From the NCBI GenBank assembly GCA_020073665.1, contig JAIQEU010000013.1, forward strand, positions 62,001 to 126,000: a stretch of DNA of 64,000 nt, given 5' to 3'. The notes under the pieces are model-generated. The model saw only the letters and a program-made list of their open reading frames with translations. It ran no database searches and had not been told where the DNA came from. The translations under genes were made by a program, and so were the position numbers. This DNA is from Terriglobia bacterium (lineage in GTDB: Bacteria; Acidobacteriota; Terriglobia; Terriglobales; Acidobacteriaceae). Each line of letters starts with the position of its first letter. Position 1 is the stretch's first letter. This document shows positions 15,886 to 17,900 of the stretch, in pieces.

Positions 15886-16710
15886 TTGCACCCCAGCCGC
15901 AAATCCGACTCACTCCCCACCCTGTTCATCCCTCACGGCGGAGGCCCTTGCTTCTTCATGGATTGGGACCCGCCCGATACCTGGCACAGGATGGCCGCAT
16001 GGCTGAAGCAACTGGGCGCTTCAATCGGGGCCGCTCCCACGGCTATCGTCGTGATTTCAGGCCACTGGGAAGAAGCGGAATTCACGGTGGGGACTCACCC
16101 CCATCCGCCGCTGATCTATGACTACTCGGGATTTCCTCCGCATACCTATGAGCTCAAGTATCCCGCAACCGGTTCTCCGGCCTTGGCCCAGCGGGTCAAA
16201 GAATTGCTGGCGCAAGCCGGAATCCCGTCGCGTTCCGACCCGCAGCGCGGCTTGGATCATGGCGTCTTCATTCCTTTCAAACTGATTTACCCCAACGCCG
16301 ATGTCCCGATCATTCAGCTATCCCTGCAGGCGGGGCTCGACCCTGCCGCTCACCTCGCCGCTGGGCACGCGCTTCAACCTCTACGGCAGCAAGGCGTGCT
16401 GATCGTGGGCAGCGGCATGAGCTATCACAATATGCGGGGTTTCCGCGCCGGAGGCGTGATCCCCGCCTCGGACCGGTTTGACGCCTGGCTGGCCGAGGCC
16501 GTTTGCGAACCCGACCCCAGGGTTAGAAACGAAAAGCTCGCTCAATGGACGCTCGCCCCGGCAGCGCGTGAGGCTCATCCCCGCGAAGAACACCTGCTTC
16601 CCCTGATGGTCGCCGCCGGCGCTGCCGGAGACGATCCGGGAAGCCGTATCTTCACCGATCGGGTGATGGGCGCAACTGTCTCGGCTTACCAGTTCGGCAG
16701 GTCTGGTTAA
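15886..16710 (+). CDS. ygiD: Class III extradiol ring-cleavage dioxygenase, DODA/YgiD type
   Basis: The product matches the LigB/4,5-DOPA-dioxygenase family: TLFIPHGGGPCFFM near the N-terminus (metal His), VVISGHWEEAEFTV (second His), GLDHGVFIPFKLIYP (His of the active site), and LIVGSGMSYHNMRGF. The Fe or Zn dioxygenase would open aromatic catechol-type substrates; YgiD of E. coli acts on L-DOPA. At 274 residues the length fits. The start is TTG 15886, because the next ATG (15958) would delete the first metal motif. It stands alone between a terminator and a small membrane protein gene. Confidence 0.88.
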   Translation: MHPSRKSDSLPTLFIPHGGGPCFFMDWDPPDTWHRMAAWLKQLGASIGAAPTAIVVISGHWEEAEFTVGTHPHPPLIYDYSGFPPHTYELKYPATGSPALAQRVKELLAQAGIPSRSDPQRGLDHGVFIPFKLIYPNADVPIIQLSLQAGLDPAAHLAAGHALQPLRQQGVLIVGSGMSYHNMRGFRAGGVIPASDRFDAWLAEAVCEPDPRVRNEKLAQWTLAPAAREAHPREEHLLPLMVAAGAAGDDPGSRIFTDRVMGATVSAYQFGRSG

Positions 16711-17050: not shown

Positions 17051-17064
17051 CTAGGTACTAGGTA
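17051..17064. repeat. Heptanucleotide repeat, 2 x CTAGGTA
   Basis: Two copies of CTAGGTA overlap the stop codon of the peroxiredoxin gene (the TAG on the minus strand is part of the second copy). It belongs to the 7-bp repeat family seen after other genes. Confidence 0.65.
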
Positions 17065-17546
17065 CTGATCTTGCGAATTGCCGCCAGCAGTTCCTGATTG
17101 TCCGGCACCTGGTCCAGCGGGTACACCTTGGCAAACGCAACCTTGCCGCTCTTATCCACGATGAACGCTGCCCGCTCGCTGATGCCTGCCACCGGCGGCC
17201 CGTCCCGCAGGATGCCGTAGGCCTGCGTCACTGCGCCATGGGGATAGAAATCCGCGCACATCGGCAAGTGCATCGTGCCGAGCTCTTTTTTCTGCCACGC
17301 CAGGTGGCTGGGGATGGAATCAACGCTGATGTCCAAGACCTGGGCATCCAGTGCGGCGAACTTCTCGCGATCCGAGTCGAACGCCGGCACCTGCGCCGCT
17401 CAAGTCGGCGTCCAGTCCAGCGGATGAAAGGTCACCACCACATGTTTCTGGCCGCGGAAATCGCTGAGCTTCACCTGCAGGCGCTGCTCGCCCGCCACCG
17501 CCGGCAGCTCAAAATCCGGGGCCAAGTCCCCTACCTTTAAAGCCAT
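17058..17546 (-). CDS. Peroxiredoxin with in-frame UGA at the peroxidatic cysteine (candidate selenoprotein)
   Basis: Reading from ATG 17546 gives [39 protein letters not shown], then TGA (17402-17400), then [17 protein letters not shown] and the normal peroxiredoxin C-terminus through [16 protein letters not shown] to TAG 17058. The TGA is codon 49 of 163 and is exactly where the family has the peroxidatic Cys of the PxxxTPxC motif. Both halves are in one frame with no other disruption, so the simplest reading is a selenocysteine codon in an AhpE/BCP-like thiol peroxidase that reduces peroxides. A hairpin follows the UGA. A conventional gene caller would report only the fragment from 17390. 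Alternatives are a sequencing error or a young pseudogene. No sel genes lie in the window. Confidence 0.8.
17355..17385 (-). promoter_or_regulatory. Candidate bacterial SECIS hairpin
   Basis: Downstream of the in-frame UGA, GGCG/CGCC forms a lower stem and CTCG/CGAG an upper stem with a 5-nt apical loop GATCG that starts with G, about 27 nt after the UGA. Bacterial SECIS elements sit inside the coding region at about this distance. The internal loop is large, so this fold needs testing; an alternative 6-bp pairing (GCGGCG with CGCCGC) starts right after the UGA. Confidence 0.45.
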
Positions 17547-17640
17547 AAGAAGAACCTCGCCCCCAGTCTAGCAGCAGACCGTAGCGCCGGCGGCCCGTCG
17601 GCTGTCGGGGGGGCGGCCCGCCCCACCCGCAGCGGATGGC

Positions 17641-17671
17641 AAAAAATAAGGGCGGCCATCCCTGGCCGCCC
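17641..17671 (-). terminator. Terminator of the cold-shock gene
   Basis: On the minus strand GGGCGGCCA and TGGCCGCCC form a 9-bp stem with a 4-nt loop, followed by TTATTTTTT. It lies 29 nt beyond the csp stop codon. Confidence 0.85.
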
Positions 17672-17699
17672 TCGGTATCGAATTTTTTCAGTCAGTGGC

Positions 17700-17900
17700 T
17701 TACGCCGGCTTTACGTTCTCCGCCTGCCACCCTTTCGGGCCTTTGACCACATCGAACTGGACCTGCTGGCCTTCCTGCAGGCTGCGAAACCCGCTGGCCT
17801 GAATCGCTGAGAAGTGTACGAACACGTCCTCCCCGTTCTGGCGGCTGATGAATCCATAGCCTTTGGCGTCGTTAAACCACTTTACTGTTCCTGTTTCCAT
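17700..17900 (-). CDS. csp: Cold-shock domain protein (CspA family)
   Basis: This 66-residue single-stranded nucleic-acid chaperone has both RNA-binding motifs: KGYGFISRQ (RNP1) and DVFVHFSAI (RNP2), with the start [18 protein letters not shown] typical of the family. ATG 17900 is used. The 240-bp region upstream, to 18141, has no gene and is AT-richer than average; it probably holds the long leader usual for cold-shock genes. A strong terminator follows, so the gene is monocistronic. Confidence 0.97.

Follow-up and report, generated by a model that had tools for sequence, protein, structure and literature searches.

Peroxiredoxins that carry selenocysteine (Sec) in a TxxU motif are an established family of bacterial selenoproteins (PMC1794560, PMC13188914), catalogued since at least 2006, with 12 proteins in one survey (PMC1794560) and 91 proteins in 78 organisms in another (PMC5029168). 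Written out further, their motif is PxxxTxxU (PMC13188914). In this study I describe a gene that resembles this family, found on the minus strand of a window from a Terriglobia bacterium, the window being the whole stretch of 64,000 nucleotides that was analysed. An intact gene, the Sec machinery, the exchange of Cys and Sec and a conserved hairpin are all confirmed in the sequence, and the fold is predicted. I read the gene, with a probability of about 0.95, as that of a one-Sec AhpE-like peroxiredoxin, the UGA49 of which would be decoded as Sec via SelB and directed by the hairpin.

Results and discussion

The gene and its surroundings

The minus-strand frame from 17546 to 17058 has one TGA, at codon 49 (17402-17400), as its sole interruption, and in the peroxiredoxin frame this TGA is preceded by FHPLDWTPT and followed by AAQVPAF. 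Direct reading therefore bears out the frame described in an earlier sequence-only reading of this DNA. That reading also predicted that gene callers would start at 17390, and an open reading frame of 110 amino acids does start at GTG 17390 under table 11; standard-code gene finders would call only these 110 residues. It could be argued from this open frame that the shorter protein is the real product and that the upstream part is a separate short open reading frame. However, such a protein would be without the first strands and the entire catalytic motif, and conservation in the family extends through the TGA over a single domain, all of which makes this explanation very improbable.

Directly upstream, on the same strand, lies a cold-shock domain gene (window 17700-17900), followed by a terminator-like hairpin (17673-17648). 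Given this hairpin, the peroxiredoxin gene is probably its own transcription unit, transcribed separately from the cold-shock gene. Past its 3' end a LigB-type aromatic-ring dioxygenase family protein is encoded on the opposite strand (window 15886-16710, plus). At five homologous loci (L025, L110, L111, L119 and L129) the Sec peroxiredoxin gene is adjoined on the opposite strand by a redoxin-like gene that may be deiodinase-related and has the motif FGSATCPMT; this neighbour is absent beside the gene in the window.

Table 1. Positions in the window of the Sec peroxiredoxin gene and of the elements associated with it.
Feature	Position	Strand	Remark
Sec-containing peroxiredoxin gene	17058..17546	-	ATG 17546 to TAG 17058, 162 aa
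SECIS-like hairpin	17352..17388	-	kept, with compensatory changes, in 39 Sec homologues
Apical loop GAUCG	17368..17372	-	begins with G, 27 nt from UGA
Possible ribosome-binding site GAGG	17555..17558	-	8 nt 5' of ATG, read from sequence
Terminator-like hairpin and T-run	17648..17673	-	between upstream cold-shock gene and Sec peroxiredoxin gene

Protein family and active site

When the TGA is read as a residue, the Pfam AhpC-TSA domain matches residues 5-138 (E 3e-31, 108 bits against a cut-off of 26), and codon 49 is the peroxidatic position in PLDWTPTU, which fits PxxxTxxU. The earlier placing of the UGA at the peroxidatic position is thus supported by the motif, the domain and the presence of Cys at the same codon in homologues. 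The active-site residues are P42, T46, U49 and R125, and the alignment of the homologues shows little or no variation at P42, in the Cys/Sec column and at R125. An AF2 model shows a peroxiredoxin fold (pLDDT 97.2, TM ~0.9 to solved peroxiredoxins), and the first 50 Foldseek matches of this model, which differ little in score, are Prx1/2/3-like chains. With phmmer, the best solved sequence match is the mycobacterial AhpE Rv2238c (E 7e-24), with plant 2-Cys Prx close behind, so that the AhpE-like label given earlier is supported by sequence. A conserved resolving Cys was not found among the homologues, whose Cys positions are scattered; several of these proteins are free of Cys.

Membership in two curated NCBIfam families is ruled out, as both scores lie far under the cut-offs: 84.3 bits against 270 for PrxU (NF040737, E 1e-23), which bears the name of a known Sec-peroxiredoxin, and 53.5 bits against 298 for Prx-SUH (NF045827, E 2e-14).

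Among the AhpC/TSA selenoproteins there are also Prx-like thiol:disulfide oxidoreductases, which have UxxC or UxxU motifs (PMC13188914), and the product could accordingly be a Sec protein that acts as a thiol:disulfide reductase or a chaperone-like AhpC/TSA member instead of a peroxidase. This seems unlikely, as UxxC is absent from the protein and as PxxxTxxU together with Arg125 are features of peroxidases.

Codon 49 in the homologues

The homologue set consists of 80 loci found by scanning a single genome per species, plus more from 150 genomes of the same order. At the aligned codon 49, about 40 acidobacterial homologues have TGA, others have TGC or TGT, and one paralogue clade has AGC. Both TGA and Cys forms are present among the closest homologues (83-70% identical), and the Cys/Sec swap that the sequence-only reading named as the usual signature of such proteins is indeed seen. 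Against near relatives, dN is ~0.1-0.2 and dS ~0.4-2, before and after the TGA alike; the sequence after the TGA is under purifying selection, and the degraded downstream sequence that would have refuted that reading is not seen.

These observations also bear on the possibility that a nonsense mutation or a miscall has produced the TGA in a former Cys gene. A single in-frame stop, which a change of one base would turn into the Cys codon TGC or TGT, is what a pseudogene or a sequencing error would give. However, independent genomes supply ~40 homologues in which this codon of the alignment is likewise TGA, which excludes chance, sequencing error and decay, and with dN low relative to dS after the TGA and the hairpin kept only in TGA genes (see below), the probability left to this explanation is next to nothing.

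Of the 150 genomes of the order, 24 have the TGA form, and selA is present in 23 of these versus 39 of the 126 others (Fisher p ~1e-9, with kinship ignored). The sole genome with the TGA form in which selA was not found, G145, has selB. One homologue, in G157, was considered as a case of UAA at the Sec site and was rejected, as it is a Cys gene (TGT) in which the listed internal TAA lies elsewhere.

Sec-decoding machinery and other selenoproteins

The same genome contains selA (533 bits), selB (383 bits), selD (350 bits summed) and a tRNA-Sec (70.6 bits; ARAGORN call SeC, anticodon tca (UCA)), so that the search for selA, selB, selC and selD proposed earlier is answered with all four genes. 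The selD gene has an in-frame TGA at the catalytic Cys/Sec site (VKAAGUASKLSP), and SelD, judged by this sequence, is itself a selenoprotein in the source genome. Its locus (L010, G000:C47:45138-46145) lies ~16 kb left of the window. An in-frame TGA is also found in the gene for the formate dehydrogenase alpha subunit FdhA (CNRTUHAPSVVGL; L140, G000:C4:104129-106006), which brings the selenoprotein genes in the source genome to at least three (Sec peroxiredoxin, SelD and formate dehydrogenase).

As I infer both the insertion of Sec at UGA49 and the peroxidase activity from sequence, it could be proposed that the UGA is read through as another residue, for instance as Trp or by near-cognate suppression. 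However, TGA is the normal terminator of several homologues of this same gene, the genome has the full Sec machinery, and codon 49 exchanges with Cys; readthrough of this kind is hardly credible, and the reading of UGA49 as Sec is preferred.

The hairpin downstream of the UGA

A bacterial SECIS element (bSECIS) is expected to have a loop of 3-9 nt, an upper stem of 4-16 bp, a G in the first two loop positions, a spacing of 16-37 nt and an MFE of at most -7.5 (PMC13188914). The window hairpin has a 5-nt loop, a 4-bp upper stem, a spacing of 27 nt and a stem-loop energy of -13.7 kcal/mol, and lies within these constraints. In its outer stem 17386-17382 pairs with 17358-17354, and in its inner stem 17376-17373 pairs with 17367-17364. 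The sequence-only reading had noted a hairpin about 27 nt after the UGA; the hairpin is present, but it is the apical loop that lies 27 nt from the UGA, and the outer stem begins after 13 nt. In the window sequence the family stem lacks its two lowest outer pairs. The simple MFE of the window hairpin is unremarkable for its base composition (z -1.0), and is by itself uninformative as evidence.

The bSECIS rules hold for 31 of 43 Sec genes versus 42 of 66 Cys genes and were rejected as a sole classifier; as they fail to separate Sec from Cys, I used covariation and synonymous resampling. The region after the UGA aligns free of gaps over 39 distinct Sec sequences, in which columns 15-21 pair with columns 45-51 in 82.8% of cells and 5 of 7 pairs show compensatory changes, although these sequences are related and the pair counts overstate their independence. 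Over the whole structure 49 cells are changed on both sides, versus 22 in shuffles, and when the partner strand is slid along, the pairing is lost. When codons were resampled synonymously with third-position GC matched, Sec genes had 5.79 pairs observed against a resampled mean of 4.43 (z = 8.8), and Cys homologues 2.52 against 2.77 (z = -2.2); the hairpin is therefore specific to Sec genes and does not simply follow from the protein that is encoded. The SECIS element sought in the earlier reading is therefore found as a covarying hairpin 3' of the UGA, in Sec forms only.

Probable loss of Sec and a Ser paralogue

In a tree of 82 proteins, the root of which is not fixed and from which I infer the direction of Sec/Cys change, nearly all acidobacterial Sec forms fall into one group, inside which several distinct Cys groups are nested (L020/L021; L113/L114/L116; L016 and neighbours; L037). 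These nested groups are best read as Sec-to-Cys reversions, and the topology suggests that Sec is old in the acidobacterial AhpE-like group, with several reversions to Cys. Another acidobacterial AhpE-like protein (L061), with TGA in FTGGU, is placed among actinobacterial-type AhpE Cys forms and is perhaps an independent gain of Sec.

The clade with AGC consists of six rows (L133, L135, L136, L137, L031 and L035; support 100/99), nested among the Sec forms. In its motif, WEPVS, Ser stands at the Sec position and the catalytic Thr is replaced by Glu or another residue. The Ser paralogue coexists with the Sec form in the source genome (L133, G000:C27:90033-90503) and in three others. This paralogue is conserved, and is probably a pseudo-peroxiredoxin that arose from the Sec form. 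That the paralogue serves as a selenoprotein-derived pseudoenzyme with a regulatory, scaffold or mixed-oligomer role together with the Sec enzyme is a speculative and rather doubtful extension of this.

Proposed mechanism and significance

According to the proposed mechanism, SelB and Sec-tRNA would insert Sec at UGA49 under direction of the coding-sequence hairpin just 3' of it. The selenolate, positioned by Pro42, Thr46 and Arg125, would then attack the hydroperoxide and yield a selenenic acid, which an external thiol, thioredoxin- or glutaredoxin-like, would most likely regenerate; resolution by an external thiol is proposed because a conserved resolving Cys is lacking.

Gene finders would truncate this gene across a large group of soil Acidobacteriota and hide a selenium-dependent enzyme of peroxide defence. 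The alignment, which combines a clean set of Sec genes with Cys reversions close to them and a single Sec-to-Ser paralogue, could be used to examine the reasons for which Sec is retained or given up, and is useful for calibrating bacterial SECIS models.

Comparison with known systems

No description of the acidobacterial AhpE-like Sec group was found in the searchable literature, although survey counts for Acidobacteria may include members. Like the bacterial Sec-peroxiredoxin family, the protein has an AhpC/TSA domain, Sec at the peroxidatic position of PxxxTxxU and Cys homologues, with a hairpin after the UGA and the Sec machinery in the genome; it differs in that this subgroup is acidobacterial and AhpE-like. 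It matches both curated peroxiredoxin models, PrxU and Prx-SUH, albeit below their cut-offs. With AhpE Rv2238c of Mycobacterium tuberculosis (PDB 5c04, 4x0x, 1xxu), which it matches over residues 3-151, it shares the D-F-W/Y-P-H-G segment and the lack of a conserved resolving Cys. However, AhpE uses Cys (FTGICQGE) where this protein has Sec (WTPTU), and the AhpE-like actinobacterial homologues are only ~40% identical to it. The evidence for this gene as a new Sec-peroxiredoxin is good, and proteins of this type were known from bacteria before.
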